Below are positions 7,691-57,048 of a stretch of 64,000 nucleotides of DNA, one piece after another (position 1 is the stretch's first letter; the number at the start of each line of letters is the position of its first letter). The DNA comes from Sphaerotilus mobilis (GTDB lineage Bacteria; Pseudomonadota; Gammaproteobacteria; Burkholderiales; Burkholderiaceae_C): NCBI RefSeq assembly GCF_004216565.1, contig NZ_SGWV01000011.1:186001-250000 (forward strand), given 5' to 3'. The notes under the pieces are model-generated. The model was not told where the DNA came from. It saw only the letters and a program-made list of their open reading frames with translations, and made no database searches. The translations under genes were made by a program, and so were the position numbers.

Positions 7691-7724
7691 GCGAGCAACG
7701 CTTGCGCCCGACGCTGCGGGTGGC

Positions 7725-37951: not shown

Positions 37952-37963
37952 CAGGACTCCTGC

Positions 37964-38003
37964 GCCCCCTCGGGGGGCAGTGAACGAAGTGAACGTGGGG
38001 GTC
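37964..38003. repeat. GC-rich intergenic element between ureB and ureC
   Basis: GCCCCCTCGGGGGGC followed by AGTGAACGAAGTGAACGTG forms a hairpin plus short direct repeats. Similar GC-rich elements occur between urtA and urtB and between urtB and urtC in this window. I recall the same style of element in intergenic gaps of Comamonadaceae. Confidence 0.6.
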
Positions 38004-38312: not shown

Positions 38313-38334
38313 CGGTTTGCCTTGTGCGCTGCGT

Positions 38335-38511
38335 TCAACGGCCGCGACGGGCCAGCCACAGGCCGACGGCGATGGCTGCGCCGACCAGCCAGAGCGTCGT
38401 GTCGCCGGCATGCCAATGGCTCAGGCCGGGCATGCCGTGGCCGTCGTGGGCCTGGGCGTTGACGGCGCTCAGGGCGGTCAGGGCAATCAGGGCGGGGATC
38501 AGCGGCTTCAT
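38335..38511 (-). CDS. Small His-rich membrane protein inside the urease operon
   Basis: This 58-residue protein has a signal peptide ([21 protein letters not shown]). A short, probably periplasmic His-rich segment ([15 protein letters not shown], four His) follows, then one C-terminal membrane helix ([17 protein letters not shown]) ending in RRGR. The start at 38511 is set by a good AGGAG ribosome site; a longer in-frame start at 38547 has none. The N-terminal pattern is reminiscent of HupE/UreJ nickel permeases (signal, HxGHG), but the protein is far too short to be one. Its place between ureA and ureB suggests a role in nickel handling. That is inference. Confidence 0.65.
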
Positions 38512-38616
38512 GCGCGGCTCCTGGGAAGGTGAAGAGGGGAAGTTCAAGAGGAGAAGGACGGGGTCGTGCCGCGCCGGCCGGTGCGTGGTGCACCAAGGCG
38601 GGTCGCGTGTGGCGGG

Positions 38617-38919
38617 TCATGCAATGGGCTGGTGCACCGTCACCAACTTGGTGCCGTCCGGAAAGGTGGCCTCGACCTGGATCTCCGGGATCATTTCGGC
38701 GACGCCGTCCATGACGTCCTGGCGCGACAGCACCAGCTTGCCGTCGCTCATCAGCTCGGCAACCGTCTTGCCGTCGCGCGCCCCTTCCATGATGGCCGCG
38801 CAGATCAGCGCGACAGACTCGGGGTAGTTGAGCTTGAGGCCACGCGCCTTGCGGCGTTCGGCCAGCAGGGCGGCGGTGAAGATCAGGAGCTTGTCCTTCT
38901 CGCGCGGGGTCAGTTCCAT
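38617..38919 (-). CDS. ureA: Urease subunit gamma
   Basis: UreA is the smallest structural subunit of urease. It has 100 residues ([61 protein letters not shown]). It is the first urease gene here and is preceded by a strong sigma-54 promoter match at 38970-38984. Downstream on the same strand come the small membrane protein, ureB and ureC. ureD, often just upstream of ureA, is instead about 17 kb away. Confidence 0.97.
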
Positions 38920-39009: not shown

Positions 39010-40185
39010 TCAGAAGCGGGCCACCAGCCCGGCGCTGACCAGGCCGTAGCGGTGCGAGAACTGGCCCGTCGTCTGGGTGTTGTAGGCCAGCGGCAGCTCG
39101 GCCAGGAAGGCATGGTCCATGGCCTGCGCGCGCAGCAGGGCGGCCAGGCCCGGCGCGAGGTCGAGCTGCAGCTCGGCGATCAGCGACTGGCTGGCGCGCA
39201 GCGCGGTGCCGCCACGCGCGTCGATCAGCGCGTCGATGCGTTCGCGCCGCCAAGCCGTGCGCTCGTAGCCCATCGTGGCCGACCAGCCGGGCTGGTCCAG
39301 GCGCAGGGCCAGCGCGAGATGGCCCAGGCGGGCGCGGTAGTTGGTCTCGGGCTGGGCGGCCGAGGGCAGCAGGGTGTTGGGCACGGCGACGATCAGCGCG
39401 TTGCCGCAGCTGTCGGCCGGTGTGGCGACCAGACGTTCGGCGCCGAAGTCCAGCGTGTAGGGGCAGCCGGCGACGTCGGCCGTGCCTTGGACAGCTTGGT
39501 TGCCCACGCGGCTGCGGCCAGCGCCGAGGGCGGCATGCAGCGACCAGGCCGGCGTCAGCGCGCGACTCATCAGCAGGTCGAACTGGGTTTGTCGGTCACG
39601 CGGGCGTTCGAGGCTGAGCGTGCTCAGGCGGGAATCGAGCGTGCCGGCGACCAGCGCGGCGCGGGTCTGGCGCGTCAGCCGGCGGGCATCGCTGCCCCAG
39701 GCCGAGGCGCGCAAGGCCCACAGCGTGGCGGGCCGGGTCAGGCCGGCGTCCAGACGGTCGGGCCCGTTCAGCCGCCACTGGCCACCCAGCTTCCAGCTGC
39801 GCAGCGACTGGGTCAGCGCGCCGTCGTCGATGTGGCGTTGCCAGGCGCTGCCGTCGAGCTTGAGGCGGCCGGCCTGCCACAAGGCGCCGGCCTGCCAGCC
39901 GCCGTAGTTGCCCACGCTCGTGCCAGCCTTGCCGGCCTGCTGACGCCAGCCCAGCACGTCCAGGCCGCCGTTGGCCGCGTCGCGGGCCAGCGTGAAGGTC
40001 AGGCCGGTCGATCCGGCGGCGCGCAGGCCCGCCGGGCCGTTGTCGGCGCTGACGAGCGCGTCCAGCGGTGCGGCTTGGGCCGCGCCGCTGAGCGCGAACG
40101 ACGCCAAGGTCGCACAGGTCGCACAGGTCACACAGGTCGAGACAGCCGCCAGGACCGCGCCGACCGTGCGCAGGCGGGCGTTCAG
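39010..40185 (-). CDS. Probable outer-membrane beta-barrel protein
   Basis: This roughly 391-residue exported protein has a signal peptide ending LASFALSGAAQA. The mature part is rich in alternating polar/hydrophobic strands (GWQAGALWQAGRLKLDGSAW, KLGGQWRLNGPDRLDAGL, YRARLGHLALALRL) and ends in Phe (LVSAGLVARF), as outer-membrane barrels do. I recognise no named family. No ATG is suitably placed. The best start is a CTG at 40185 that overlaps the stop of the upstream lipoprotein gene (TTCTGAAC), giving an n-region NARLRTVG. This implies translational coupling and a rare start codon. The upstream lipoprotein is the likely partner. Confidence 0.6.
   Translation of the reverse strand: MNARLRTVGAVLAAVSTCVTCATCATLASFALSGAAQAAPLDALVSADNGPAGLRAAGSTGLTFTLARDAANGGLDVLGWRQQAGKAGTSVGNYGGWQAGALWQAGRLKLDGSAWQRHIDDGALTQSLRSWKLGGQWRLNGPDRLDAGLTRPATLWALRASAWGSDARRLTRQTRAALVAGTLDSRLSTLSLERPRDRQTQFDLLMSRALTPAWSLHAALGAGRSRVGNQAVQGTADVAGCPYTLDFGAERLVATPADSCGNALIVAVPNTLLPSAAQPETNYRARLGHLALALRLDQPGWSATMGYERTAWRRERIDALIDARGGTALRASQSLIAELQLDLAPGLAALLRAQAMDHAFLAELPLAYNTQTTGQFSHRYGLVSAGLVARF
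40111..40137. repeat. 9-base tandem repeat inside a signal-peptide coding region
   Basis: Three in-frame units (CGCACAGGT, CGCACAGGT, CACACAGGT) encode a Cys/Thr-rich repeat in the signal peptide of the barrel-like protein. A change in copy number would lengthen or shorten its hydrophobic core by three residues per unit. Confidence 0.8.
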
Positions 40186-41768
40186 AACGTCAGGCGGCCG
40201 GTGACCGCCGTGCCGCGCACACGCTCGGCGATGCCGCTGGCGCCCGGGATGGACACGGCGACATTGCCGCGCGGGAAGGGCGTGCCATCGGCCAGGCGCA
40301 GGTCGACCTCGCTGACCACCAGCGTGACCTCGAAGGTGCCGGTGCCCGAGAGCATCTGGTCGATCAGGGCGGTGTTGGCCGGGAACTTGCCCTTCATGCC
40401 GGCGGCCAGCCGGCTCAGGTCCAGCGAGGCGCCGCCCTCGGGGTTGCTCAGCAGGCTGGTGTCCATGTCCTCGAAACCGTTGCGGCCGGTGCCAAATTCG
40501 ACCCCGCTGGACGAGCGGGCGTAGAAGTACAGCTCGGAGTTGCGCGACAGCGTCAGGCGGACCTGGCCGGTGCCGGCGTCGCGGCTCAGGCGCAGGTCGT
40601 CCAGCAGGAACTGCAGCGTGCGGCCATTGGGTGCCGCGACGTCGCGCACCGACAGGCCGACCGCGACCTTGCGGCCATTGCCGGGCAGGGCGCGCACGTC
40701 GGCCGTCAGCGGCAGGCGCAGGGCGGTCAGGTCTGCAAGGCGCAGGCCGCGCAGGTCGACGCCGCTGGCGAACTGGCTCAGCGTGATGCTGCGCGAGCCG
40801 CCTTCGAGCGTCGGGCCGACCAGCTCGAAGGTGTCGTCCCGTGCGGCGATGTGGCGGGCCCGGCCCATGCCGTCGTCGTCGCGGCACTCGTTGCGGGCGC
40901 CGTCGTAGGCGGCGTCGTCGTCCAGGTCGGTGCCGCTGACGATGGACGTCACGACGCCGTTGTTGAAGTCGTCGCGGATGTCGTCGTAGCGGGTCTTGGC
41001 GGCGATGCGCGCGGTGATGCGCTGCAGGCCTTCGGCCAGCAGGTCGGCCGCGCGTGTCTTCGCGGTGCCGGTCAGCGTGCCGACGGGCAGCGTGTCCAGC
41101 GCGGCGACGGCGGCCGCGCGGATGGCGGCGTTGCGGGCCACCGCGTCAGTGGCGAGGTCCGTGCCGGCCGGCGTGTCCTGCACATTCGCGACCAGGGCAC
41201 TCACAGCGGCACTGAAGGCCGTGGCGGGGTCACCGCCCAGCGACTCCACCGCATCGGCGATCTCGTTGAGGATCTTGGCGATGGCGGCGGCCTTGGGGCC
41301 GCGTGTGTTGTCGGTGGGCTCGAAGCTGTGGGCGTCCACGCCGGACAGGCCGAGCTTGGCCAGCACGGCGGGGAAGGCGGTGTCGTCCAGGCCGCTGGCG
41401 AGTTGCAGGGTCGTGAAGGGCGAGACCACCGAGCCGCCGCGGCGGGCCTTGAACGAGCCCTTGGGCGCGCGCAGCGTGGTGCGGTCGTAGCCGGTGCCGG
41501 CCACCGAGGTCAGCGTGCCGCTGCTGCAGCCGGCGATGTCGTAGCGGCCGTTGTCGTCGGTCGTCGCGCTGGCCTCGCCGCTGTCGAGCTGGCTGTCGCC
41601 GTCGAGGTCGCAGAACACCGTGGCGCCGATCACCAGGTCGTCGATCAGCACACCCTGGGCGGACGCGCCGGTCCCGCCGGTGCCGATGCCACCACCGCCG
41701 CCACAGGCGGCGAGCCCGAAGGCGAGCAGGAGTGACAGGGCCAGCGGGCGCAGTTGGGGACGGGTCAT
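40182..41768 (-). CDS. Large lipoprotein, unknown function
   Basis: This 528-residue protein has a lipoprotein signal (LALSLLLAFGLAAC, lipid Cys at about 22), followed by a Gly-rich spacer. A segment at about 45-100 (VIGATVFCDLDGDSQLDSGE, ATTDDNGRYDIAGC) looks like a small SdrD/B-type beta repeat with Asp-rich, calcium-binding-like loops. A helical middle part and a beta-rich C-terminal part (about 310-528) follow. I do not recognise the full-length family. The start at 41768 opens the signal peptide. It overlaps the barrel-like gene and is divergent from the sensor kinase gene. Confidence 0.7.
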   Translation of the reverse strand: MTRPQLRPLALSLLLAFGLAACGGGGGIGTGGTGASAQGVLIDDLVIGATVFCDLDGDSQLDSGEASATTDDNGRYDIAGCSSGTLTSVAGTGYDRTTLRAPKGSFKARRGGSVVSPFTTLQLASGLDDTAFPAVLAKLGLSGVDAHSFEPTDNTRGPKAAAIAKILNEIADAVESLGGDPATAFSAAVSALVANVQDTPAGTDLATDAVARNAAIRAAAVAALDTLPVGTLTGTAKTRAADLLAEGLQRITARIAAKTRYDDIRDDFNNGVVTSIVSGTDLDDDAAYDGARNECRDDDGMGRARHIAARDDTFELVGPTLEGGSRSITLSQFASGVDLRGLRLADLTALRLPLTADVRALPGNGRKVAVGLSVRDVAAPNGRTLQFLLDDLRLSRDAGTGQVRLTLSRNSELYFYARSSSGVEFGTGRNGFEDMDTSLLSNPEGGASLDLSRLAAGMKGKFPANTALIDQMLSGTGTFEVTLVVSEVDLRLADGTPFPRGNVAVSIPGASGIAERVRGTAVTGRLTF

Positions 41769-41905
41769 GCAGGAAGCTCCAGGTTCGGGGGGGATGGCCG
41801 GCACTCTACGAAGCCGGGCCGAGGCTGTCGTGTGAAGGAAGGGCGCAATTCCGGCCTTGCTCGGGCGATGTGCAAGCAGATTTGTCGGACCTGAATGCCC
41901 GCTGC

Positions 41906-41921
41906 TGGTGCGGAAATTGCA
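41906..41921 (+). promoter_or_regulatory. Candidate sigma-54 promoter of the permease-kinase gene
   Basis: TGGTGCGGAAATTGCA matches TGGCACG-N4-TTGCA at 10 of 12 defined bases, with the invariant GG and GC at the correct 10-base spacing. It lies about 60 bases before the ATG at 41982. If used, it rules out the upstream ATG at 41895. Confidence 0.45.
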
Positions 41922-41981
41922 AAGGTCATCGATCCGCCCCGTCGATCCGATCCCGCCCGCCCGCCAGCCCTGCCGCCGCCG

Positions 41982-44900
41982 ATGTCCGCACCGCCCCTTG
42001 CCGACCTGGATGACGCCGCCGCCCCGCCGCAGCGCGTCATCAAGGTCCGGCGCGACTACAACAGCTGGGTCGCCAGCGAGACGCTGGAGGACTACGCGCT
42101 GCGCTTCACGCCGCGCAGCGCCCGGCGCTGGGGCATCGGCCGGGTCGCCAACACCGCCTTCGGGGGCGCGTCATCCTTTCTGGTGCTGGAGGCGGTCGGC
42201 GCGACCCTGCTGGTGCAGCACGGCTTCGTCAACGCGGCGCTGGCCATCCTGGCGACCGCGCTGGTGATCGCGCTGGCCGGCATCCCCATCAGCGTCTACG
42301 CCGCCCGCCACGGCCTGGACATGGACCTGCTGACCCGCGGCGCGGGCTTTGGCTACATCGGCTCGACGTTGACCTCGTTGATCTATGCGAGCTTCACCTT
42401 CATCTTCTTTGCGCTCGAAGCGGCCGTCATGGCCTATGCGCTCGAACTGGCCTTCGACATCCCGCCGGCCTGGGGCTACCTGATCTGCGCGCTGGTGGTG
42501 ATCCCGCTGGTCACGCACGGCGTCACGCTGATCAGCCGGCTGCAGGTCTGGAGCCAGCCGATCTGGTTGCTGATGCTGCTGCTGCCCTATGCCTACGTGT
42601 TCGCGCGCAACCCCGGCCTGCTTGACGAGCTGCGCGCCTACGGCGGAGAGCGCGGCCTGACCCACTTCGACGGCCTGGCCTTCGGCTCGGCCATGACGGT
42701 GGGCATCGCGCTGATCACGCAGATGGGCGAGCAGGCCGACTACCTGCGCTTCATGCCCGAGCGCACGCGCGAGAACCGCGTCCGCTGGTGGGCCGGCACG
42801 CTGGTCGGCGGCATCGGCTGGATCGTGCCGGGCGTGCTCAAGATGCTGGGCGGTGCGCTGCTGGCCAGCCTGGCGATCGGCCATTCGGTGCCGACCGAAC
42901 GGGCGGTCGACCCCAACCAGATGTACCTGGCGGCCTATGAATACGTCTTCCCGAACTACGCCTGGGCGGTGGCCGCCACGGCGCTGTTCGTGGTGGTGTC
43001 GCAGCTCAAGATCAACGTCACCAACGCCTATGCCGGCTCGCTGGCCTGGAGCAACTTCTTCTCGCGCGTGGCGCACAGCCACCCGGGGCGGGTGGTCTGG
43101 ATGCTGTTCAACATCCTGATCGCGCTGGTGCTGATGGAGCTGGACGTCTTCCAGGCGCTCGGCGGCGTGCTGGGGCTCTACAGCAACCTCGCCATCAGCT
43201 GGCTGATGGCGGTGGTCGCCGACCTCGTCATCAACAAGCCGCTGGGCCTGTCGCCGCGCGGCATCGAGTTCCGGCGGGCCTACCTCTACGACATCAACCC
43301 GGTGGGCGTCGGTGCGATGGTGCTGGCCTCGCTGCTGTCGGTGGCGGCCTACCTGGGTCTTTTCGGGCCCTGGGCGCAGGCCTGGTCGGCGGCGATCGCG
43401 CTGGTGACCGCCTGCCTCGCCTCACCGCTGATCGCCTGGGCGACCGGCGGTCGTTATTACATCGCCCGGCCGCAGCCCGCCTCGTGTGCCGGGGCCTGCG
43501 GCGGCGAGGCCTGTCCGGCCGGGTCTTACCAGCGACTCGCCAGCATCGCCCGCTGCAGCATTTGCGAGCGTGAATACGAGGGCGACGACATGGCCGCCTG
43601 CCCGGCCTATGGCGGGCCGATCTGCTCGCTGTGCTGCACGCTGGACGCGCGCTGCAACGACCTGTGCAAGCCCCACGCCCGCCTGTCGGTGCAATGGAGC
43701 GCGGCCCTGCGGCGCCTGCTGCCGCGCAGCATCTGGCCCTATCTGGACAAAGGCCTGGGCCATTTCGTGCTGCTGATGGTGGTCGTCGTGCCGCTGCTCG
43801 GGCTGATGTTCGGCGTGCTGTACCACCAGGAGCTGCGCTCGCTGGAGGCTCAGGGCCTGAGCCTGTCGACCGACCTCTGGACGGGTCTGCGCGACGGTCT
43901 GCGGGCCGGCTACGTCAAGGCCTATGCCGCCCTGCTGCTGGCCGCTGGCGTGGTGGCCTGGTGGCTGGTGCTGGCGCACCAGAGCCGCGTGGTGGCGCAG
44001 GAAGAATCGAACCGCCAGACCGAGGCCCTGCACCAGCAGACCGTGGCGCTGCAGCGCGAGATCGCCTCGCACCGCCAGACCGATCTGGCCTTGCAGGACG
44101 CCAAGGCCGTGGCCGATGCGGCGCGCGCCCAGGCCGAGGCCGCCAACGGTGCCAAGACCCGCTACATCACCGCCATCAGCCATGAGCTGCGCACGCCGCT
44201 GAACTCCATCCTCGGCTATGCCCAGTTGCTCGAAGAGGACGAGGCCATGCCGGCGCACCGGCGTCAGGCGGTGGGCGTGATCCGGCGTGGTGGCGACCAT
44301 CTGCTGTCGCTGATCGAGGGCACGCTGGACCTCGCCCGCATCGAAGGCGGCAAGCTCGCGCTGCAGTCCCGGCCGATGCGCTTTGCCGACACGCTGGGCG
44401 AGATCGCCCGGCTGTTCGAGCTGCAGGCCGCCTCCAAGGGCATCGCCTTCCGCAGCGAGTTCGACGCCCACCTGCCGGCCGTCGTGCGGGCCGACGAGCG
44501 ACGGCTGCGCCAGATCCTCATCAACCTGGTCGGCAATGCCGTCAAGTTCACGAGCCGCGGCCAGGTCGTGCTGCGGGTCCAGCATGCCCGCGAGATCGCC
44601 CGCTTCGAGATCATCGACTCCGGCCCCGGCATGGACGCGGCCGAGCTGGAGCGGGTCTTCGAGCCCTTCGAGCGTGGCTCGGCGGCGGGTGCCACCTCGG
44701 GCAGTGGCACCGGCCTGGGCCTGACCATCAGCCGCATGCTGACCGCCTTGATGGGCGGCGAGATGACGGTGCAGAGCACACCCGGCGTGGGCACCACCTT
44801 CCGGCTGACCCTGTTCCTGCCGGCGCTGGCCGACGATGCCGCGCTGCCGCGCGAGCAGGTGCCACAGCGCATCGGCCAGCGCGGCCGGCCGCGCCGCATC

Positions 44901-45569
44901 CTGGTGGTCGACAACGAGGAGGCCGACCGCGGCCTGCTGCTGTCGATGCTGGCGCCGCTGGGCTTCGATCTGCGCCAGGCCGCCAGTGGCGAGGACGCGC
45001 TGGCGCTGCTGGCCACGCTGGCGCCGCATGAGCGGCCCGAGGCCGTTTTCATGGACCTCGCCATGCCTGGCATCGACGGCTGGGAGACGCTGCGCCGGCT
45101 GCAGCGCGACTGGCCGGTGGGCACGCCGCTGCCGGCTCGCGCCATCGTCTCGGCCAATGCCTTTGACCAGGCGCTGGACAACGACGTGGGCATCACGCCG
45201 GCCGACTTCTTCGTCAAGCCGGTGCGCCTGCACGAGCTGCTCGACTGGCTGGGTCGCCAGCTGGCGATCGACTGGGTCGACGCACCCAAGCCGACCGGCA
45301 CACCGGTCTTGGCTGGCTCATCGACAGAGCCCGCTGCCGCTGCGCCGGCCTTGGCGCCCGACGCCGACCTGAGCACCTTGCGTGAAGCCTTGACGCTGGG
45401 CTACCAGCGTGGCGTGCTGCGCGCGCTCGATGCCCTGCAGCAGGCCCAGCCGCAGGCCGCGCCGCTGATCGAGCGCTGGCGCAGCCTGACCCGCAGCTTC
45501 CAGCTCGACACGCTGGTGCGAGAGGTGTCGTCCACCACCCCCAACCTGGAAGACGCCCGCCGTGCTTGA
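41982..45569 (+). CDS. NCS1-type permease fused to hybrid histidine kinase
   Basis: This 1195-residue membrane sensor has five parts. Residues about 25-490 form an NCS1 nucleobase:cation symporter-like permease (WGIGRVANTAFGGASSFLVL, YAARHGLDMDLLTRGAGFGY, QMGEQADYLRFMP). Residues about 503-567 form a Cys-rich, probably zinc-binding module with 11 Cys (ARCSICEREYEGDD, PICSLCCTLDARCNDLCKPH). Two more helices (about 594-614 and 647-666) and a coiled coil follow. The HisKA/HATPase part has the phospho-His in AISHELRTPLN (about 733), NLVGNAVKFT, DSGPGMD and GTGLGLTIS. A receiver domain has its Asp in VFMDLAMPGIDG (about 1025). A LuxR-type regulator gene overlaps its end and urtABCDE follow. The natural ligand is probably a nucleobase, ureide or urea; this is inference. 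Confidence 0.88.
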   Translation: MSAPPLADLDDAAAPPQRVIKVRRDYNSWVASETLEDYALRFTPRSARRWGIGRVANTAFGGASSFLVLEAVGATLLVQHGFVNAALAILATALVIALAGIPISVYAARHGLDMDLLTRGAGFGYIGSTLTSLIYASFTFIFFALEAAVMAYALELAFDIPPAWGYLICALVVIPLVTHGVTLISRLQVWSQPIWLLMLLLPYAYVFARNPGLLDELRAYGGERGLTHFDGLAFGSAMTVGIALITQMGEQADYLRFMPERTRENRVRWWAGTLVGGIGWIVPGVLKMLGGALLASLAIGHSVPTERAVDPNQMYLAAYEYVFPNYAWAVAATALFVVVSQLKINVTNAYAGSLAWSNFFSRVAHSHPGRVVWMLFNILIALVLMELDVFQALGGVLGLYSNLAISWLMAVVADLVINKPLGLSPRGIEFRRAYLYDINPVGVGAMVLASLLSVAAYLGLFGPWAQAWSAAIALVTACLASPLIAWATGGRYYIARPQPASCAGACGGEACPAGSYQRLASIARCSICEREYEGDDMAACPAYGGPICSLCCTLDARCNDLCKPHARLSVQWSAALRRLLPRSIWPYLDKGLGHFVLLMVVVVPLLGLMFGVLYHQELRSLEAQGLSLSTDLWTGLRDGLRAGYVKAYAALLLAAGVVAWWLVLAHQSRVVAQEESNRQTEALHQQTVALQREIASHRQTDLALQDAKAVADAARAQAEAANGAKTRYITAISHELRTPLNSILGYAQLLEEDEAMPAHRRQAVGVIRRGGDHLLSLIEGTLDLARIEGGKLALQSRPMRFADTLGEIARLFELQAASKGIAFRSEFDAHLPAVVRADERRLRQILINLVGNAVKFTSRGQVVLRVQHAREIARFEIIDSGPGMDAAELERVFEPFERGSAAGATSGSGTGLGLTISRMLTALMGGEMTVQSTPGVGTTFRLTLFLPALADDAALPREQVPQRIGQRGRPRRILVVDNEEADRGLLLSMLAPLGFDLRQAASGEDALALLATLAPHERPEAVFMDLAMPGIDGWETLRRLQRDWPVGTPLPARAIVSANAFDQALDNDVGITPADFFVKPVRLHELLDWLGRQLAIDWVDAPKPTGTPVLAGSSTEPAAAAPALAPDADLSTLREALTLGYQRGVLRALDALQQAQPQAAPLIERWRSLTRSFQLDTLVREVSSTTPNLEDARRA

Positions 45570-46524
45570 CCGCAACGCCAGCGACATCGTGCTGATCGTC
45601 GACGACGTGCCCGACAACCTCGCCGTGCTGCACGATGCGCTTGACGAGTCCGGCTACACCGTGCTGGTGGCGACCAATGGCGCGGACGCCATCGCGCGCG
45701 CCGTGCAGGCGCGTCCGCATGTCGTGCTGCTCGATGCGGTCATGCCTGGCATGGACGGCTTCGAGGTCGCCCGCCGCCTCAAGGCCGATGCGGCGACCGC
45801 CCACATCCCCATCGTCTTCATGACCGGTCTGACCGAGACCGAACATGTGGTGGCCGCGTTTGCGGCCGGTGGCTGCGACTACGTCACCAAGCCGATTCGA
45901 GCCCGCGAGGTGCTGGCCCGCATCGCCGCCCACCTGCACACTGCGCGCGAACAGCGGCTGGCGCGCAATGCGCTCGATGCCTTCGGTCATGCCAGCCTGG
46001 TGGTGCGCCTGGTCGACGGCCGCATCCTCTGGCAGACCGCGCTGGCGCGGCAGATGCTGGCCGATGCGGCCGATGTGGCCGATCCCGCCAGCGGCGAGGC
46101 GCGCCGTGCACCCGTCGACCTGCTGGCCTGGCTGCAGCGCGAGGCTCATCGGGTGAGCCAGACCGATGCGGCCGGCAACGTCCCGCAGGCCCTCCCGCTG
46201 GATCTTGAACTCGGTGCCCGACGGCTGCGCTGCAGCCTGCAGGAGGCCACCGGCGACGGCGAGTGGCTGGTGGTGCTGCGCGAGTCCGACGACGCCGCCG
46301 CGCTGGAGGCGCTGGTGCTGGCCTTTCGCGTCACCCGGCGCGAGGCCGAGGTGCTGCTGTGGCTCTGCCGGGGCAAGACCAACCGCGACATCGGCGAGAT
46401 CCTCGGCGCCAGCGCGGCGACGGTGAAGAAGCACCTGGAACACGTCTACGAGAAGCTGGGCGTGGAGACCCGCAACGCCGCAGCGGCGGTGGCGATCGGC
46501 AAGGTGCCGCAGCTGGGGCGGTGA
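45562..46524 (+). CDS. LuxR/NarL-type response regulator
   Basis: This 320-residue regulator has an N-terminal receiver domain (VLIVDDVPDNLAVLHDALD, phospho-Asp in HVVLLDAVMPGMDG near 56, Lys in YVTKPIRAREV). A middle region at about 130-250 looks PAS-like (HASLVVRLVDGRILWQTALA). The C-terminal LuxR helix-turn-helix is VTRREAEVLLWLCRGKTNRD through KKHLEHVYEKLGVETRNAAA. The start is GTG at 45562, inside the kinase gene (8-base overlap), so kinase and regulator are made together. The urea transporter operon starts 292 bases downstream and is the most likely target. Confidence 0.92.
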   Translation: MLDRNASDIVLIVDDVPDNLAVLHDALDESGYTVLVATNGADAIARAVQARPHVVLLDAVMPGMDGFEVARRLKADAATAHIPIVFMTGLTETEHVVAAFAAGGCDYVTKPIRAREVLARIAAHLHTAREQRLARNALDAFGHASLVVRLVDGRILWQTALARQMLADAADVADPASGEARRAPVDLLAWLQREAHRVSQTDAAGNVPQALPLDLELGARRLRCSLQEATGDGEWLVVLRESDDAAALEALVLAFRVTRREAEVLLWLCRGKTNRDIGEILGASAATVKKHLEHVYEKLGVETRNAAAAVAIGKVPQLGR

Positions 46525-46550
46525 ACGGCCGTCGCCCGATGGCGACGGAT

Positions 46551-46620
46551 CACCCGCTCACCCGCTCACCCACTCACCCACTCACCCACTCACCCACTCA
46601 CCCACTCACCCACTCACCCG
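46551..46620. repeat. 8-base tandem repeat before urtA
   Basis: About 8.75 copies of CACCCRCT stand in a row; the first two are CACCCGCT and the rest CACCCACT. The tract begins 27 bases after the regulator stop and ends about 200 bases before urtA. It is non-coding. Confidence 0.95.
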
Positions 46621-46646
46621 CCGCGAGGCTTTGCGCCGGGCTGTGC

Positions 46647-46682
46647 GGCGTGTTTGGCGGCGTGTCGGGCGGCGTGTCGGGA
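46647..46682. repeat. 12-base tandem repeat before urtA
   Basis: Three units of GGCGTGTYKGGM (GGCGTGTTTGGC, GGCGTGTCGGGC, GGCGTGTCGGGA) follow the 8-base repeat tract and end ten bases before the TACGCC palindrome. Confidence 0.85.
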
Positions 46683-46692
46683 TGCGCCCACC

Positions 46693-46708
46693 TACGCCAT
46701 CCGGCGTA
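46693..46708. promoter_or_regulatory. Palindromic operator candidate upstream of urtA
   Basis: TACGCC-ATCC-GGCGTA is a perfect inverted repeat with 6-base arms, centred 116 bases before the urtA ATG. Size and spacing fit a LuxR/NarL-type dimer site, and the regulator gene is immediately upstream. Confidence 0.45.
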
Positions 46709-46816
46709 TGGGCGCCAAGCGTGACGCTGAGCACACTTCATCTCAGTCGCCGAAGACCTCGGTGCACGGATTCCTTCCCCAGCCCTCAACGCCCTCAACG
46801 ACCCGGAGCTACTCCC

Positions 46817-48094
46817 ATGCAAACCACCCGTCGCACGTTCGCCAAGACGCTCAGCGCTGTGTCGCTCGGCGTCGCCGCCCTGAGCCTGCCGCTGTTCGCG
46901 CAGGCCGCCGACACCATCAAGGTCGGCATCCTGCACTCGCTGTCGGGCACGATGGCCATTTCCGAGACGGTCCTCAAGGACGTCGCCCTGATGACCATCG
47001 ACGAGATCAACGCCAAGGGTGGCGTGCTCGGCAAGAAGCTCGAACCCGTCATCGTCGACCCGGCCTCGAACTGGCCGCTGTTCGCCGAGAAGGCCAAGCA
47101 GCTGATCGACCAGGACAAGGTCGCCGCCGTGTTCGGCTGCTGGACCTCGGTGTCGCGCAAGTCGGTGCTGCCGGTCTTCGAAGAGAAGAACTCGCTGCTG
47201 TTCTACCCCGTCCAGTACGAAGGTGAAGAGCTGTCCAAGAACGTGTTCTACACCGGTGCCGCGCCCAACCAGCAGGCCATTCCGGCGGTCGAATACCTGA
47301 TGAGCAAGGACGGCGGTTCGGCCAAGCGCTTCGTGCTGCTGGGCACCGACTACGTCTACCCGCGCACGACCAACAAGATCCTGCGCGCCTTCCTGAAGGC
47401 CAAGGGCATCCCCGAGTCCGACATCATCGAGGAGTACACCCCCTTCGGCCATGCCGACTACCAGTCGATCATCGCCAAGATCAAGAAGTTCGCCTCCGAA
47501 GGCAAGAAGACCGCCGTCGTCTCGACCATCAACGGCGACTCGAACGTGCCCTTCTACAAGGAACTGGGCAACCAGGGCCTGAAGGCGACCGACGTGCCGG
47601 TGGTGGCCTTCTCGGTGGGTGAGGAAGAGCTGCGCGGCGTCGACACCAAGCCGCTGGTCGGCCACCTGGCCGCCTGGAACTACTTCATGAGCGTCAAGAG
47701 CCCGGCCAACACCGAGTTCGTCAAGAAGTGGAGCGAGTACGCCAAGGCCAAGGGCATCGCCGGCCACAAAGACAAGCCGCTGACCAATGACCCGATGGAG
47801 GCCACCTACATCGGCCTGCACATGTGGGCCCAGGCCGTCGCCAAGGCCAAGACGACCGACACCGACAAGGTCATCGCCGCGATGGCTGGCCAGACCTTCC
47901 AGGCGCCGGGCGGCTTCGTCTCGACGATGGACAAGGAAAACCACCACCTGCACAAGCCGGTGTTCATCGGCGAGGTGAAGGCCGACGGCCAGTTCAACGT
48001 CGTGTGGAAGACCAAGGGCCCGGTCCAGGCCGATCCGTGGAGCGACTTCATTGCCGAGAACAAGGGCAAGAAGAACGTGCCGGAAAAGAAGTAA
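46817..48094 (+). CDS. urtA: Urea ABC transporter substrate-binding protein
   Basis: UrtA is the periplasmic urea-binding protein of the high-affinity UrtABCDE system. It has 425 residues. The signal peptide carries a Tat-like motif (TTRRTFAKTL) and ends FAQA-ADTIK. The mature part begins TIKVGILHSLSGTMAISETVL, typical of UrtA/AmiC-like binding proteins, and includes FGCWTSVSRKSVLPVFEEKN and YPVQYEGEELSKNVFY. The start at 46817 is chosen as the beginning of the signal peptide. A strong terminator after it suggests it is made in excess over the membrane components. Confidence 0.95.
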   Translation: MQTTRRTFAKTLSAVSLGVAALSLPLFAQAADTIKVGILHSLSGTMAISETVLKDVALMTIDEINAKGGVLGKKLEPVIVDPASNWPLFAEKAKQLIDQDKVAAVFGCWTSVSRKSVLPVFEEKNSLLFYPVQYEGEELSKNVFYTGAAPNQQAIPAVEYLMSKDGGSAKRFVLLGTDYVYPRTTNKILRAFLKAKGIPESDIIEEYTPFGHADYQSIIAKIKKFASEGKKTAVVSTINGDSNVPFYKELGNQGLKATDVPVVAFSVGEEELRGVDTKPLVGHLAAWNYFMSVKSPANTEFVKKWSEYAKAKGIAGHKDKPLTNDPMEATYIGLHMWAQAVAKAKTTDTDKVIAAMAGQTFQAPGGFVSTMDKENHHLHKPVFIGEVKADGQFNVVWKTKGPVQADPWSDFIAENKGKKNVPEKK

Positions 48095-48100
48095 CCCCCC

Positions 48101-48180
48101 CTACCGCAGCGCAGCTGCGGCCCCCCCAAGGGGGGGCGGGATGAGTGGACCGGCGGAGCCGGATCCACCATCCCCGCTGG
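48101..48180. repeat. GC-rich intergenic element between urtA and urtB
   Basis: It contains a CCCCCCC-AA-GGGGGGG hairpin and CCGGCGGAGCCGGATCCACC. The second half nearly matches CCGGCGAAGCCGGATCCACG in the urtB-urtC gap, so both gaps carry related elements. Confidence 0.6.
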
Positions 48181-48184
48181 TGGA

Positions 48185-48216
48185 GCGCCAGGGCCTTTGG
48201 GCCCGGCGCCTTTTTT
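48185..48216 (+). terminator. Rho-independent terminator between urtA and urtB
   Basis: GCGCC(A)GGGCC and GGCCCGGCGC pair around a TTTG loop, with one bulged A, and are followed by six T. It lies about 90 bases after urtA and should lower transcription into urtBCDE. Confidence 0.82.
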
Positions 48217-48262
48217 CGGTTGTTCGATTTTGCGCTGGGTGGATGGCGCTCAAGGTTGATTC

Positions 48263-49861
48263 ATGGTGCTGCGCAAGCTGTTGTCGGTGGCTCAGGTGCT
48301 GAGCCTGTGGCTGGTGCTGTCGGGAGGCTCGCATGCCTTGACGGCGCAGCAGGCTTTGACGATCGCGGCGGGGGAGACCGATGAGCGGATCGCGGCACTG
48401 AATGCGGCGGCTGGCGAGGGTGATCCGGCGCTGGCGGCGTTTGTGCAAGCGATGCTGGACGATGGCGTCAAGGTCGATGCGCAGCAGGCCTATGTCGTGC
48501 GCGAGGGCAAGACCTTCGTGGCTGGCACCGACACCGAGGCGACGCCGCCGGTCGATGCCGAGGATGTCGTCAACAACAACCGCATGCGTGGCGCGCTGGA
48601 AGCGGCGCTGGGCGTGCTCAAGCTGGTCTCGCCGGACGTGACGGTGCGCGCCGCTGCGCTGACGGAACTGGCCCGCAACCCGCTGGACGAGGCGCAGCTG
48701 CCGATGATCGAGAAGGCCTATGCGGCCGAGACCGATGCGGCGCTGAAGGCCCGTCTGGAGAACCTGCGTGCGACGCTGCTGGTCAGCGTCGCCGATCCGG
48801 CCCGCCGGCTGGAGGCCGCGACCGCGCTGGGTGCCAGCGCCGAGTCGGGCGTCAAGAGCCTGTTGCAGGAACGCCTGGCCGCCGGGGTCGAGACCGATCC
48901 CGCCGTGCGTGTGGCGCTGCTGAAGTCGCTCGCATCGGTCGAGTCCCGGCTGGCCTGGGGCGAACGGCTGGGCGTCGTCTTCACTGGCATCAGCCTGGGC
49001 TCGATCCTGCTGCTGGTGGCCCTGGGTCTGGCCATCACCTATGGCCTGATGGGCGTCATCAACATGGCCCACGGCGAGCTGATGATGATCGGCGCCTATG
49101 CCACCTATGTGGTGCAGAACGCCTTCCGGGCCTGGCTGCCCGATCTCTTCGATGCCTATGTGCTGGTCGCCATTCCGGTGTCCTTCCTGAGCGCCGCGCT
49201 GGTCGGTGCGGTGCTCGAGCGCAGCGTCATCCGCTGGCTATATGGCCGGCCGCTGGAGACACTGCTGGCGACCTGGGGCATCAGCCTGATGCTGATGCAG
49301 GCGGTGCGTTCGCTGTTCGGGGCGCAGAACGTCGCGGTCGAGAACCCGGCCTGGCTGTCGGGCGGCGTGCAGGTGGCGTCCAACCTGATCCTGCCCTTCA
49401 ACCGCCTGGCCATCGTCGCCTTCGCGTTCCTGGTGCTGGGCGGCGTGGCGCTGATGATCTCGCGCACCCGGCTCGGCCTGTTCGTGCGCGGCGTGACGCA
49501 GAACCGCCGCATGGCGTCCTGCATGGGCGTCAACACCGCCCGCATCGACACCTATGCCTTCTCGCTCGGCGCGGGCATCGCCGGTCTGGCCGGCTGCGCG
49601 CTGAGCCAGGTCGGCAACGTCGGCCCGGACCTGGGTCAGGGCTACATCGTCGACGCCTTCATGGTGGTCGTCACCGGCGGTGTCGGCCAGCTCGCCGGCA
49701 CGGTCTATGCGGCCCTGGGCCTGGGTGTGCTCAACAAGTTCCTCGAAGGATTTGCCGGCGCGGTGCTGGCCAAGATCATGGTGCTGGTGTGCATCGTGGT
49801 GTTCATCCAGAAGCGTCCGCAAGGCCTGTTCGCGATGAAGGGGCGGTCGGCCGAGGCGTGA
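48263..49861 (+). CDS. urtB: Urea ABC transporter permease UrtB
   Basis: UrtB is one of the two membrane subunits of the urea importer. The 532-residue length is typical of UrtB. The N-terminus holds a signal peptide (LLSVAQVLSLWLVLSGGSHA), and about 200 residues of soluble, helical, probably periplasmic sequence follow. A LivH-type permease then runs from about 230 (VVFTGISLGSILLLVALGLAITYGLMGVINMAHGE), with LLATWGISLMLMQAVRSLFG and GVTQNRRMASCMGVNTARID. The 168-base gap from urtA holds a terminator and a repeated GC-rich element. Confidence 0.94.
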   Translation: MVLRKLLSVAQVLSLWLVLSGGSHALTAQQALTIAAGETDERIAALNAAAGEGDPALAAFVQAMLDDGVKVDAQQAYVVREGKTFVAGTDTEATPPVDAEDVVNNNRMRGALEAALGVLKLVSPDVTVRAAALTELARNPLDEAQLPMIEKAYAAETDAALKARLENLRATLLVSVADPARRLEAATALGASAESGVKSLLQERLAAGVETDPAVRVALLKSLASVESRLAWGERLGVVFTGISLGSILLLVALGLAITYGLMGVINMAHGELMMIGAYATYVVQNAFRAWLPDLFDAYVLVAIPVSFLSAALVGAVLERSVIRWLYGRPLETLLATWGISLMLMQAVRSLFGAQNVAVENPAWLSGGVQVASNLILPFNRLAIVAFAFLVLGGVALMISRTRLGLFVRGVTQNRRMASCMGVNTARIDTYAFSLGAGIAGLAGCALSQVGNVGPDLGQGYIVDAFMVVVTGGVGQLAGTVYAALGLGVLNKFLEGFAGAVLAKIMVLVCIVVFIQKRPQGLFAMKGRSAEA

Positions 49862-49864
49862 CAT

Positions 49865-49965
49865 GACCCACCCCCTACGCGCCGCGCGCGCCCCCTCAAG
49901 GGGGCACCACCGGTGGCCCGGCGAAGCCGGATCCACGGTGGTTGCTGGACAAGAACGAGGACTGT
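49865..49965. repeat. GC-rich intergenic element between urtB and urtC
   Basis: GCCCCCTCAAGGGGGC forms a hairpin, and GGCGAAGCCGGATCCAC repeats, with small changes, a segment of the urtA-urtB gap. A related GC-rich hairpin lies between ureB and ureC. Confidence 0.6.
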
Positions 49966-49980
49966 GAGCCGGGATCGGCC

Positions 49981-51117
49981 ATGCGAGACGGAGTGAATGA
50001 CGTGACGACGATGACTTTGGGATTGCCCAGCCCGCGACGCGGCCTGCTGCTGGGCGTGCGCGGCTGGACCGCCGTGCTGACCGCGCTGATCGTCGTGGTC
50101 GTGCTGGTGCCGCTGCTCAATCTGGTGGTGCCCGAAGGCAGCCTGTTCCACCTGAGCGAGTTCCACGTCCAGCTGGTCGGCAAGATCATGTGCTACGCCA
50201 TCTGCGCGCTGGCGATGGACCTGATCTGGGGCTACACCGGCATCCTGTCGCTGGGCCATGGCCTGTTCTTCGCGCTCGGCGGCTACGGCATGGGCATGTA
50301 CCTGATGCGCCAGATCGGCCGCGACGGCAACTACCAGAGCGACCTGCCGGACTTCATGGTCTTCCTCGACTGGAAGGCGCTGCCCTGGCACTGGACCTTC
50401 AGCGACAGCTTCCTCGCCCAGCTCATCTTGCTGCTGCTGGTGCCGGGCCTGCTGGCCTTCGTGTTCGGCTTCTTCGCCTTCCGCTCGCGCATCAAGGGCG
50501 TGTACTTCTCGATCATCACGCAGGCGATGACCTTCGCCGCGATGCTGCTGTTCTTCCGCAACGAGACCGGCTTCGGTGGCAACAACGGCTTCACCGACTT
50601 CAAGCGCATCCTGGGCGTGCCCATCGCGCTGCCGGGCACGCGGGTCTTCCTGTTCGTGCTGACGGGGCTGACGCTGATCGGCTTCTTCCTGATGGCGCGC
50701 GCCATCGTCAACAGCAAGTACGGCCGGGTGCTGCAGGCCATCCGCGACGCCGAGTCGCGGGTGATGTTCACCGGCTACGACCCGCTGGCCTACAAGCTGG
50801 GCATCTGGACCTTGAGCGCGGTGATGTGCGCGGTGGCCGGTGCGCTCTATGTGCCGCAGGTCGGCATCATCAACCCCGGCGAGATGAGCCCGGCCGCATC
50901 GATCGAGATCGCGATCTGGGCGGCGGTCGGTGGCCGCGCGACGCTGATCGGCCCGATCGTCGGCGCCTTCTTCGTCAACGGCGCGAAGAGCTGGTTCACG
51001 CAGGTCTTCCCCGAGTTCTGGCTCTACTTCCTGGGCGCGCTGTTCATCGCGGTGACGCTGTTCCTGCCACAGGGCATCGTCGGCCTGTTCAACAAGATCA
51101 AGGAGCGCCGCGCATGA
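49981..51117 (+). CDS. urtC: Urea ABC transporter permease UrtC
   Basis: UrtC is the second membrane subunit, of the LivM type, with about 378 residues. Signature stretches are CYAICALAMDLIWGYTGILSLGHGLFFALGGYGMGMYLM near residue 70 and GYDPLAYKLGIWTLSAVMCAVAGALYVPQVGIINPGEMSP near residue 262. The start is uncertain: ATG 49981 (MRDGVNDV) and ATG 50011 (MTLGLPSP) are both possible, and neither has a strong ribosome site; an upstream TTG is less likely. The stop overlaps the urtD ATG (ATGA), so urtC and urtD are coupled. Confidence 0.93.
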   Translation: MRDGVNDVTTMTLGLPSPRRGLLLGVRGWTAVLTALIVVVVLVPLLNLVVPEGSLFHLSEFHVQLVGKIMCYAICALAMDLIWGYTGILSLGHGLFFALGGYGMGMYLMRQIGRDGNYQSDLPDFMVFLDWKALPWHWTFSDSFLAQLILLLLVPGLLAFVFGFFAFRSRIKGVYFSIITQAMTFAAMLLFFRNETGFGGNNGFTDFKRILGVPIALPGTRVFLFVLTGLTLIGFFLMARAIVNSKYGRVLQAIRDAESRVMFTGYDPLAYKLGIWTLSAVMCAVAGALYVPQVGIINPGEMSPAASIEIAIWAAVGGRATLIGPIVGAFFVNGAKSWFTQVFPEFWLYFLGALFIAVTLFLPQGIVGLFNKIKERRA

Positions 51118-52004
51118 CGCCGGACCTGATGGAGGACCGCGCGCTGGCGCGTGTCGAACACGCGGCCAAGCTCGCCTCGACCAGCGGCAAGACCGAGTCC
51201 GGTGGCCGCAGTGCCTCGTATGGTCGTCTGCACCGCGCCGGCTCGGTGGACTTCACGCACGGCGTGGCGCTCTACCTGGACGACATCACGGTCAGCTTCG
51301 ACGGCTTCAAGGCCCTCAACAACCTGAGCCTGAGCATCAACGTCGGCGAGCTGCGCTGCATCATCGGCCCGAACGGCGCGGGCAAGACGACCATGATGGA
51401 CGTCATCACCGGCAAGACCCGGCCGGACGCGGGCCGCGCGTCCTTTGGCTCGACCATCGACCTGCTGCGTCTGCGCGAGAACGAAATCGCCCAGATCGGC
51501 ATCGGCCGCAAGTTCCAGAAGCCCACGGTCTACGAGGAGCTCAGCGTGTTCGAGAACCTCGAACTCGCCCTGGCCGCAGACCGTCGCGCCCGCGCCAGCC
51601 TGTTCCACCGCCTGAGCGGCGAGCAGCTCGACCGCATCGGCGAGGTCATCACGCTGATCCACCTGAAGACCGAGGCCCAGCGCACCGCCGGCCTGTTGAG
51701 CCACGGCCAGAAGCAGTGGCTGGAGATCGGCATGCTGCTGATGCAGGACCCCAAGCTGCTGCTGCTCGACGAGCCGGTCGCTGGCATGACCGACGAGGAG
51801 ACCGAGCGCACCGCCGAGCTCTTCCTGTCGCTCGAAGGCCAGCATTCGCTGGTGGTGGTCGAACACGACATGAAGTTCGTCGACCAGCTCACCGAAGGTC
51901 GCAAGACGGTGACGGTGCTGCATGAGGGCAGCGTGCTGGCCGAGGGCAAGTTGGCGGACGTGCAGGCCAATGAGAAGGTCGTCGAGGTCTACCTCGGCCG
52001 ATGA
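51114..52004 (+). CDS. urtD: Urea ABC transporter ATP-binding protein UrtD
   Basis: UrtD is one of two ATPases that drive urea import (LivG type). It has 296 residues. Walker A is IIGPNGAGKTTMMD near residue 85, the signature is LLSHGQKQWLEIGM near residue 200, and Walker B is KLLLLDEPVAGMTDEE. The N-terminal 55 residues before LYLDDITVSFDGFKAL are a poorly conserved extension. The ATG at 51114 overlaps the urtC stop by four bases. Confidence 0.95.
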   Translation: MTPDLMEDRALARVEHAAKLASTSGKTESGGRSASYGRLHRAGSVDFTHGVALYLDDITVSFDGFKALNNLSLSINVGELRCIIGPNGAGKTTMMDVITGKTRPDAGRASFGSTIDLLRLRENEIAQIGIGRKFQKPTVYEELSVFENLELALAADRRARASLFHRLSGEQLDRIGEVITLIHLKTEAQRTAGLLSHGQKQWLEIGMLLMQDPKLLLLDEPVAGMTDEETERTAELFLSLEGQHSLVVVEHDMKFVDQLTEGRKTVTVLHEGSVLAEGKLADVQANEKVVEVYLGR

Positions 52005-52014
52005 GAGAACACAC

Positions 52015-52707
52015 ATGCTGAAGGTCGAAGGACTCAACCAGTACTACGGCGGCTCGCACATCCTGCGCGGGCTGGGCTTCGAGGCGAAGCTGGGCGAGGT
52101 CACCGTCGTGCTCGGCCGCAACGGTGTCGGCAAGACGACCTTGCTCAAGAGCCTGATGGGCGTCGTGCCGATCAAGACGGGCTCGGTGTCGCTCGACGGC
52201 GCCGACATCTCGCGCGACACGCCCTACGAGCGGGTGCGCAAGGGCGTTGGCTACGTGCCGCAAGGCCGCGAGATCTTCGGCCGGCTGACGGTCGAAGACA
52301 ACCTGCGCATGGGCCTGGCCTACAAGAGCGGCAGCACGCCGATCCCGGCCGAGCTGTTCGAGCTGTTTCCCGTGCTCAAGCAGATGATCCACCGCCGTGG
52401 CGGTGACCTGTCGGGCGGCCAGCAGCAGCAGCTGGCCATTGCGCGGGCGCTGGCGGCGGGGCCCAAGCTGCTGATCCTCGACGAGCCGACCGAGGGCATC
52501 CAGCCCAGCATCATCAAGGACATCGGCCGCGTCATCCGCATGCTGGCCGACCGTAAAACCATGGCCATCGTGCTGGTCGAACAGTTCTACGACTTCGCCG
52601 CCGAACTGGCCGACCAGTACCTGGTGATGGAACGCGGCGAGATCATCGCCAGCGGCCGTGGCCACGAGATGGAAGCCAAGGGTGTGCGCCAGCTGATGTC
52701 GATCTGA
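52015..52707 (+). CDS. urtE: Urea ABC transporter ATP-binding protein UrtE
   Basis: UrtE is the second ATPase of the urea importer (LivF type). It has 230 residues, beginning MLKVEGLNQYYGGSHILRGL. Walker A is VLGRNGVGKTTLLKS, the signature is DLSGGQQQQLAIARAL and Walker B is LLILDEPTEGIQPSI. It starts 10 bases after urtD. It is the last gene of the operon; the next gene begins 95 bases later. Confidence 0.95.
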   Translation: MLKVEGLNQYYGGSHILRGLGFEAKLGEVTVVLGRNGVGKTTLLKSLMGVVPIKTGSVSLDGADISRDTPYERVRKGVGYVPQGREIFGRLTVEDNLRMGLAYKSGSTPIPAELFELFPVLKQMIHRRGGDLSGGQQQQLAIARALAAGPKLLILDEPTEGIQPSIIKDIGRVIRMLADRKTMAIVLVEQFYDFAAELADQYLVMERGEIIASGRGHEMEAKGVRQLMSI

Positions 52708-56193: not shown

Positions 56194-57048
56194 TCAGGTG
56201 GACCACACCCGTGGCGGGCTGGCGACGCGACCCCAGGCCAGCTCGCGCCAGATCGCCCAGACGGCTGCCAGCCGCTTCATCGCCGGCTCGACCCTGGGTG
56301 CGAGCACCCGCAAGACCAGGCAGGACGGCTGGGCAGCGCTGACGCCCGCTTGCAGCGCCAGGCCGGGCTCGTCCGGCCACTCGGCCAGACGGGTGCGGGC
56401 GGCGTCCAGCGCCTGATCGATCAGCGCCTTCGGGAAGGCCGTGCCAGACGCCAGCCAGAAGGTGCCCAGCACCCGCTGGCCGGCCCAGCCCAGGGGGCTG
56501 TCCAGCAGCGCGTGGTCGTCGGCCGACAGGCGGGCCTGTTCCAGCCAGACGCCGGGCAACTCGATGCGCTGCTCATAACTGCCGCGTCGCCAGGCCAGGT
56601 CAGCGGCCGGCAGGCCCAGGGCGAGCAGGTCCCAGCCCATCATCTGGGCGCCGGGGGCCAGTTCGAAGCGCATCTGGTTGTGGGCGATGCAGGCGTCGTA
56701 GGCGATGGTTTCGAGCGGCAACCATTCCAGCCGGGCGCCGTCGGCCAGCCGGGCCACCACACGCTGGGTCGCCGGCTCGCCGCCGCTGCGGTAGTAGCGG
56801 GTCGCGCCGGGCGTGGTGATCAGCGCGTGGCTGCCTTCGGCCAGGTCCAGGGCGACGTCCAGCGTGTCGCCACCGACCAGGCCACCGGGCGGGTGGACCA
56901 GCACGTGGTGGCAGACGGCGTCGCCCTCGGGATAGAGCCGCTGCAGCACCCGCAGCGGGCCGTCGTGGCGGTCGTGGGCCATCGTGCGCGGGGCGCTCGC
57001 GTGGGGGTCGAGGCGGTAATCGAGCCTCAGGTGGCCATGCCAGCTCAT
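56194..57048 (-). CDS. ureD: Urease accessory protein UreD (UreH)
   Basis: UreD binds apo-urease and, with UreF and UreG, forms the complex that inserts nickel. It has 284 residues. Family motifs are GHLRLDYRLDPHASAPRTM near the start, VLVHPPGGLVGGDTLDVAL near residue 52, ALITTPGATRYYRSGG near 74, and LEWLPLETIAYDAC near 108. It stands about 17 kb from ureA, alone on its strand between a PEP-CTERM gene and a 588-base non-coding region. It must therefore be regulated apart from the other urease genes. Confidence 0.93.
   Translation of the reverse strand: MSWHGHLRLDYRLDPHASAPRTMAHDRHDGPLRVLQRLYPEGDAVCHHVLVHPPGGLVGGDTLDVALDLAEGSHALITTPGATRYYRSGGEPATQRVVARLADGARLEWLPLETIAYDACIAHNQMRFELAPGAQMMGWDLLALGLPAADLAWRRGSYEQRIELPGVWLEQARLSADDHALLDSPLGWAGQRVLGTFWLASGTAFPKALIDQALDAARTRLAEWPDEPGLALQAGVSAAQPSCLVLRVLAPRVEPAMKRLAAVWAIWRELAWGRVASPPRVWST

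Follow-up and report, generated by a model that had tools for sequence, protein, structure and literature searches.

Transporter domains that serve as the input of histidine kinases have been described before. CbrA of the Pseudomonas CbrA/CbrB system, CrbS and RpuS each carry a LeuT-fold transporter domain fused to a histidine kinase with a role in nutrient regulation, and the ammonium sensor kinase Ks-Amt5 of Kuenenia reuses a nitrogen-compound transporter domain as kinase input (PMC5764959). Here we describe a hybrid sensor kinase in a stretch of 64,000 nucleotides from Sphaerotilus mobilis (contig NZ_SGWV01000011.1, positions 186,001 to 250,000; hereafter the window), which has an NCS1-like membrane domain as its predicted input and is encoded, together with a LuxR-type response regulator, directly before the urea importer genes urtABCDE. 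The conserved gene neighbourhood and a palindromic site before urtA make it probable that this kinase is a receptor for urea and related small amides which directly controls urea uptake, a reading in which we infer the ligand, the phosphotransfer and the DNA binding. The locus is organized as follows (window coordinates; aa, amino acids; TM, transmembrane helix):

41895-45569, plus strand: open frame of the kinase, 1224 codons; the start at 41982 is Met30 of this frame
41982-45569, plus strand: hybrid sensor kinase with NCS1-like input domain, from the frame, Pfam and the predicted fold
42030-43469, plus strand: predicted NCS1-like membrane domain, aa 46-525, with a broken TM1
43554-43667, plus strand: eight-cysteine module CxxC-x11-C-x7-CxxCC-x5-C-x3-C, aa 554-591
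43752-43979 (approximate limits), plus strand: two further likely TMs between cysteine module and kinase core, from model helices (predicted local distance difference test, pLDDT, about 60-70) and hydrophobicity judged by eye
44154-44351, plus strand: HisKA, aa 754-819, with phospho-acceptor His763 (Pfam)
44493-44819, plus strand: HATPase_c, aa 867-975 (Pfam)
44898-45245, plus strand: receiver of the kinase, aa 1002-1117, with Asp1054 (Pfam)
45562-46524, plus strand: response regulator with GTG start, receiver (REC, Asp58) and LuxR/GerE helix-turn-helix (PF00196; Pfam)
46693-46708, strand-neutral: putative operator TACGCCATCCGGCGTA, a TACG-N8-CGTA palindrome centred about 116 bp before the urtA ATG
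46817-48094, plus strand: urtA, urea-binding protein (Peripla_BP_5; Pfam)
48263-49861, plus strand: urtB, permease (BPD_transp_2; Pfam)
49942-51117, plus strand: urtC, permease (BPD_transp_2; Pfam), start uncertain
51114-52004, plus strand: urtD, ATPase (Pfam), start uncertain
52015-52707, plus strand: urtE, ATPase (Pfam)
36224-38919, minus strand: urease genes ureC, ureB and ureA, upstream of the kinase

The initial annotation of this DNA had recognized an NCS1-type permease, a histidine kinase and a receiver in one chain, an 8-base overlap with the regulator gene, and urtABCDE following on the same strand. All of this is borne out: the GTG start of the regulator at 45562 lies 8 bases inside the kinase gene, which ends at 45569, the urt genes occupy 46817-52707, and the NCS1 part is identified by its predicted fold, not by Pfam. 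For the kinase, the start at 41982 is likelier than that at 41895, because the match of a same-genus relative begins at residue 29. The residues of a hybrid two-component system are in place, with His763 and Asp1054 in the kinase and Asp58 and the GerE domain in the regulator; the phospho-acceptor histidine is found in 110 of 111 fused kinases and the receiver aspartate in 104 of them.

How general is this arrangement? The 103 stretches fetched around matches (L128 left out as filler) contain 101 fused kinases of this kind, so the fusion in the window is not due to chance. The regulator gene adjoins the kinase in 91 of the 101; among the ten without it, three are truncated by the end of their contig. 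For 83 of the fused kinases, the flanking 9.5 kb contain urease or a set of three or more urt genes, and urea or short-chain-amide genes in general, counted as two or more urt genes, urease, formamidase, amidase, AmiS/UreI or urea carboxylase with query proteins identified by Pfam, lie within the same distance of 90 (urt 65, formamidase 48, urease 36, amidase 22, AmiS/UreI 5, urea carboxylase 0). Two kinds of kinase can be told apart. In the 30 kinases of the window kind (TM identity at least 72%), urease is nearby in 28; among the 71 of the other kind, 54 have at least three urt genes, mostly in a divergent operon with a urtA that shares about 40% identity with the window's, and formamidase is annotated in some of these loci. 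The other kinases listed for the control do not share this association: in 18 genomes, with 31 urtA genes at 39% identity or more, urtA was found within 15 kb of 21/23 fused kinases but 2/127 other kinases, and within 5 kb of 16/23 but 1/127, the 127 being those listed of 373 other kinases. The link to urea genes suspected in the initial annotation could have failed at this point, and it held.

The DNA between kinase and urtA provides a candidate for the site of control. The dyad TACG-N8-CGTA is present in 41 of the 51 divergent intergenic regions between kinase and urtA, whereas base-shuffled versions (simple shuffles, three per sequence) gave a count of 0.0. Exact sites number 44 in the 18,096 bp between kinases and urtA genes and 10 in the remaining approximately 1.01 Mb of these loci; both results come from the set on which the pattern was discovered. 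Its consensus is ATACGTcA-NN-TgACGTAT. Over all kinase loci, 58 of the 72 urtA starts with at least 300 bp in view have the site within 400 bp, namely 38/48 of the 40% kind, 7/11 of those at 50-72% and 13/13 of the window type. The window itself holds a single exact TACG-N8-CGTA, at 46693-46708 between regulator and urtA (10 matches when one mismatch is tolerated, where 4.36 are expected), and a narrower pattern matches once in the 4.65-Mb genome, at this same place. A relative from the same genus, L025, retains the site but differs in the bases around it, and the site recurs between kinase and formamidase (L055) and between kinase and stand-alone carrier (L071). No exact copy was found before the urease genes in view, including the operon at 36224-38919, which makes urt the likelier direct target in the window kind, as judged from sequence.

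Outside the discovery set, the site and the kinase go together across genomes. Before window-type urtA genes of Burkholderiales, the site was found in 29/29 genomes with the kinase and in 2/11 without it (Fisher p 2e-7, only a guide as the genomes are related). In a 30th kinase genome, G041, where the end of a contig truncates urtA, TACG-N8-CGTA is present and the narrower pattern absent. A first promoter set had given 17/20 against 2/13, the three misses being urtA genes at 67-75% identity. In kinase genomes, none of seven urtA promoters without a kinase nearby carries the site (seven fetched of nine outside Burkholderiales). The site is retained at urtA genes unlinked to the kinase, 99 kb away in G166 and on a separate contig in G012, G036 and G053, which fits control in trans.

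What can be said about the input domain? In Pfam (E<1), no match of any kind was found before residue 672 of the kinase, and from there on two weak matches, DUF6384 and Mis12, both remain below their cut-offs; the NCS1 family PF02133 gave no match to the window protein, and neither did any SLC5 family. A direct proof of NCS1 identity by sequence was sought and rejected, as phmmer and profile searches of the PDB gave no link to NCS1 chains. The predicted structure is more telling. An AlphaFold2 (AF2) model of residues 37-745, built with 49 sequences, reached a mean pLDDT of 77.8, with values near 90 across most of the membrane domain, and its five best PDB matches by Foldseek are structures of CodB and Mhp1 (E 1.6e-9 to 5.7e-7; TM-score by target 0.64-0.77). 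A model of YcsG-FabL (1.2e-5), SGLT2 (1.8e-5) and other SLC5 and LeuT-fold proteins follow at lower ranks, so that NCS1 structures rank above SLC5 structures as fold matches. Among five stand-alone relatives of the domain, at 44-53% identity, L083 passes the PF02133 cut-off (32.4 bits against 23.5), L211 stays just under it and three have no match; a more distant relative, L084 (29% identity), also passes. Given the fold matches and the PF02133 passes among its relatives, we therefore assign the modelled domain to the NCS1-like branch of the LeuT fold. The initial annotation had set this domain apart as a transporter fold different from the SLC5 cases, a contrast that does not hold: the CbrA domain has been described as LeuT-type (PMC13022988), our model also matches SGLT2 and SLC5 structures, and both domains are of LeuT type.

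In a MAFFT alignment with Escherichia coli CodB, 86 of 404 aligned positions are identical; residue numbers from the CodB paper (PMC9379551) refer to Proteus vulgaris CodB and were matched by motif. Arg216 of TM6, Tyr285 of TM8 and Asp213 of CodB correspond to R285, Y379 and D282 here, and the NCS1 arginine and tyrosine are kept as R285 and Y379 in 111/111 kinases. The threonines T278/T279 of the CodB sodium site Na2 in TM8 are replaced by K372/I373, without exception, and W108, Q105 and A207 align with F171, T168 and Q276. Eleven positions (Q276, E279, Q280, D282, R285, Q370, K372, I373, N374, N377 and Y379) are identical in all 111 kinases and in 45/45 stand-alone relatives. TM1 differs between the two groups: nearly all kinases have F95, L98 and E99 (one row has a gap, and L98 is Met or Cys in five), the 45 stand-alone rows have Y95, D98 and F99, and the stand-alone relative L071 has Q99. 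One reading of these sequences would be a common pocket with an altered coupling in the sensors. A first alignment by hand had equated E99 with CodB F33; this was rejected, since MAFFT places F95 there and E99 at M37.

The stand-alone relatives themselves lie partly among urea genes. Within 10 kb of 80 of them we counted urease in 12, urea carboxylase or allophanate hydrolase in 5, formamidase in 2, amidase in 1, urt in 1 and a fused kinase in 3; some of these relatives adjoin urease, urea carboxylase, urt or formamidase genes. In a Nitrospira genome (L211, 9899-13621), a stand-alone relative stands directly before urtA; it may be the additional urea transporter that has been reported for comammox (PMC6311188). 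In Acinetobacter pittii (L137, 6299-11575), a fused kinase and a stand-alone relative are arranged divergently, and no urt or urease match was found in that stretch. We considered the name UctT for the stand-alone relatives and rejected it, as the accessible parts of the papers call UctT a urea carboxylase-related (amino acid) permease and offer no sequence for comparison. In a tree of 139 sequences, whose root is unreliable, a main kinase group of 105 tips (support 0.989) and a stand-alone group of 26 tips (0.995) are separate, and orphan kinases fall between the two.

Between membrane domain and kinase core lies a linker that, like the two likely TMs behind it and the palindrome before urtA, goes beyond the initial annotation. 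All eight cysteines of its motif are invariant in the 111 fused kinases, the window included. A profile of the module matched at 36 positions, spread over 32 of 249 genomes and in every case directly behind a match to the membrane domain; among these genomes the module was found only in fused kinases of this kind, although a distant copy could be missed, as in many genomes only the first 25 candidates were scored. Pfam returned nothing significant for the motif (best E 0.21 for Siva and 0.24 for Prok-RING_1), and a PDB search returned zinc-finger chains over 14-16 positions, weak matches with a whole-sequence E of 4.3e-4 at best and no stretch passing alone. Pfam likewise showed no STAC match in the linker, a negative that includes no direct comparison with a STAC profile or structure, and a literature search for the cysteine motif brought no match.

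Taken together, these features suggest how the system could work. The transporter-derived kinase would be a receptor for urea and similar short-chain amides such as formamide and acetamide. A ligand in the central pocket of the NCS1-like domain, which may or may not also transport, would change the state of the domain, and this change would pass via the eight-cysteine module and the two extra TMs to the HisKA/HATPase core. From the kinase, the phosphate would be relayed to the LuxR-type regulator, which in its phosphorylated form would bind (A)TACG-N8-CGTA(T), which in the Burkholderiales type lies some 70-140 bp ahead of urtA, and turn on urtABCDE; in the window, the exact site stands at urtA and none at the urease operon. 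For kinases of the broader branch, the target of kinase and regulator would be an amide-type operon of urt, formamidase or amidase genes. To judge from the partner genes, the ligand would be urea in the window kind and short-chain amides, urea or both in the other kind. A more far-reaching version, which we regard as unlikely, would make these kinases a widespread class of NCS1-fold receptors for urea and short-chain amides, in which the invariant lysine stands in for the sodium site, the cysteine module adds a second, metal or redox input, urea uptake is turned on only when the amide coincides with a permitting metal or redox state, and the stand-alone relatives are unrecognized urea or amide importers.

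Three other explanations have to be weighed against a urea and amide receptor. The membrane domain could be a working carrier, with the kinase reading the transport cycle as a transceptor instead of a static bound ligand. CbrA sets a precedent, as it binds histidine, shows proton-driven uptake and has a lysine in its Na2 site (PMC13022988), and in the present domain K372 takes the place of an Na2 threonine of CodB while the pocket residues are common to the stand-alone relatives; yet the divergence of TM1 between kinases and the 45 stand-alone proteins, L071 with its Q99 aside, suggests altered coupling, and the transporter-derived domain of Ks-Amt5 binds its ligand without moving it (PMC5764959). 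We regard transport-cycle sensing as possible but somewhat unlikely. The input could also be a nucleobase, allantoin or a hydantoin, as for known NCS1 carriers, with urea uptake turned on since these compounds break down to urea. Characterized NCS1 structures do bind cytosine and hydantoins (PMC9379551), one stand-alone relative is annotated as an allantoin permease, though it is located before a urease operon, and the fused kinase L130 lies near genes of the xanthine dehydrogenase family. Against this, the neighbours counted are urea and short-chain-amide genes (urt, urease, formamidase, amidase and AmiS), the loci L022-L215 contain no relative of the cytosine deaminase gene codA (other nucleobase genes were not searched for), and CodB Trp108 and Gln105 are aligned with Phe and Thr, which together leave such an input very unlikely. 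The initial annotation, which had named such compounds beside urea as nitrogen sources, was right in its observations and largely right about urea uptake as the likeliest direct target of a two-component system with an NCS1-like input, whereas it was wrong on the fold contrast and is less likely to be right on nucleobases, the L130 locus pointing the other way.

A further alternative, quite unlikely in our view, is that the palindrome belongs to another regulator and owes its link with the kinase to shared ancestry or to linkage with urea genes. Palindrome and regulator are indeed matched by association in sequence data, the compared genomes are related, and two kinase-less genomes carry the site; however, it is kept at the unlinked urtA genes named above, lacks an exact copy in 9/11 kinase-less genomes and at 7/7 urtA promoters without a kinase nearby, and occurs also at the formamidase and stand-alone carrier of L055 and L071. 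Several observations weigh against a urea and amide receptor acting through this site. The two kinase-less genomes are the drafts G027 (340 contigs) and G040 (460 contigs, 74% complete), and no full-length relative of the regulator was found in either; an exact site is absent from 14 of the 72 urtA starts; and in the genome of the window itself the count is not enriched, with one match against 14 for the reversed control. Seven of the 101 kinases have neither a LuxR regulator (contig cuts aside) nor an exact site. None of the tested genes is near 11 of the 101 fused kinases, eight of which have less than 6 kb of flank on one side, with L040, L078 and L079 lacking them despite flanks of at least 6 kb, and a tested neighbour is near only 23 of the 80 stand-alone relatives and absent near 57. 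Among the nine annotated plasmid loci that carry a fused kinase, urt genes are listed for eight (the tables are incomplete), and the ninth, L130 of Azospirillum lipoferum, has neither urt nor the site, its xanthine dehydrogenase-family neighbours pointing to a different or wider input there. Finally, the cysteine region is poorly modelled, much of it at pLDDT below 50.

Among the kinases without a LuxR regulator, L064, L065, L113 and L117 have formamidase or AmiS genes nearby. At the orphan fused kinases of L064 (stretch 6648-7928) and L065, the next gene encodes a receiver-EAL protein instead of the LuxR regulator, so that amide sensing may feed cyclic-di-GMP turnover there. The membrane domain was found in 37/60 genomes of the family, 18/321 of a class sample and 52/349 of a phylum sample, with the genome of the window itself or weak or stand-alone matches included in each count. 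In PLSDB, 533 of 72,556 plasmid records have relatives of the input domain; 342 of these records are Klebsiella by name, and the kinase part was checked in some only. In the one Klebsiella plasmid record examined, the fused kinase lies opposite urtABCDE and a formamidase gene, and the trait can thus move between species.

In the window, ureD (PF01774) is located at 56194-57048, about 18 kb from ureABC, so that the kinase-urt block and further frames interrupt the set of urease genes. Two frames lie on the minus strand at 39010-41804, between ureA and the kinase, a lipoprotein-like one of 540 residues and a second that looks outer-membrane-like by eye, neither with a Pfam match at E<0.001; in a Mitsuaria plasmid and in L025, unlike the window, urease is directly opposite the kinase. 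An 8-bp tandem repeat, TCACCCAC, lies between regulator and operator at 46550-46619 (8.8 copies, 98% matches) and was not seen in the corresponding stretch of L025.

How does this system relate to those already described? Close to it by description, not by sequence comparison, is operon III of Ectopseudomonas guguanensis G3, where a hybrid kinase, a LuxR regulator and urtABCDE are reported from a single region, with fmdA under a neighbouring locus tag; in the accessible part of that paper, an NCS1 domain, a cysteine module and an operator are not named (PMC13296017). In the openly accessible literature, a scope that leaves most subscription papers outside, we found no description of an NCS1-kinase fusion. 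With CodB and Mhp1 the window domain shares the predicted fold and, in CodB, the counterparts of R285, Y379 and D282, while it differs from them in having no PF02133 match, in the exchange of the Na2 Thr-Thr for Lys-Ile and in its fusion to a kinase. Ks-Amt5 has an Amt transporter domain where the window kinase has an NCS1-like one (PMC5764959). CbrA, CrbS and RpuS combine SLC5 and STAC domains, whereas here an NCS1-like domain is joined to the kinase by the eight-cysteine module and two extra likely TMs, with the uptake of urea or amides as the presumed target; common to CbrA and the window kinase is a lysine in the Na2 region, K196 and, by alignment, K372 (PMC13022988). After SLC5 and Amt, NCS1-like carriers would thus be another transporter family recruited as kinase input, with a linker found only in these kinases. 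For the sensing of external urea, the locus provides concrete candidates for receptor, regulator and operator, and it suggests that bacteria reuse the shape of a transporter to sense urea and related small amides.

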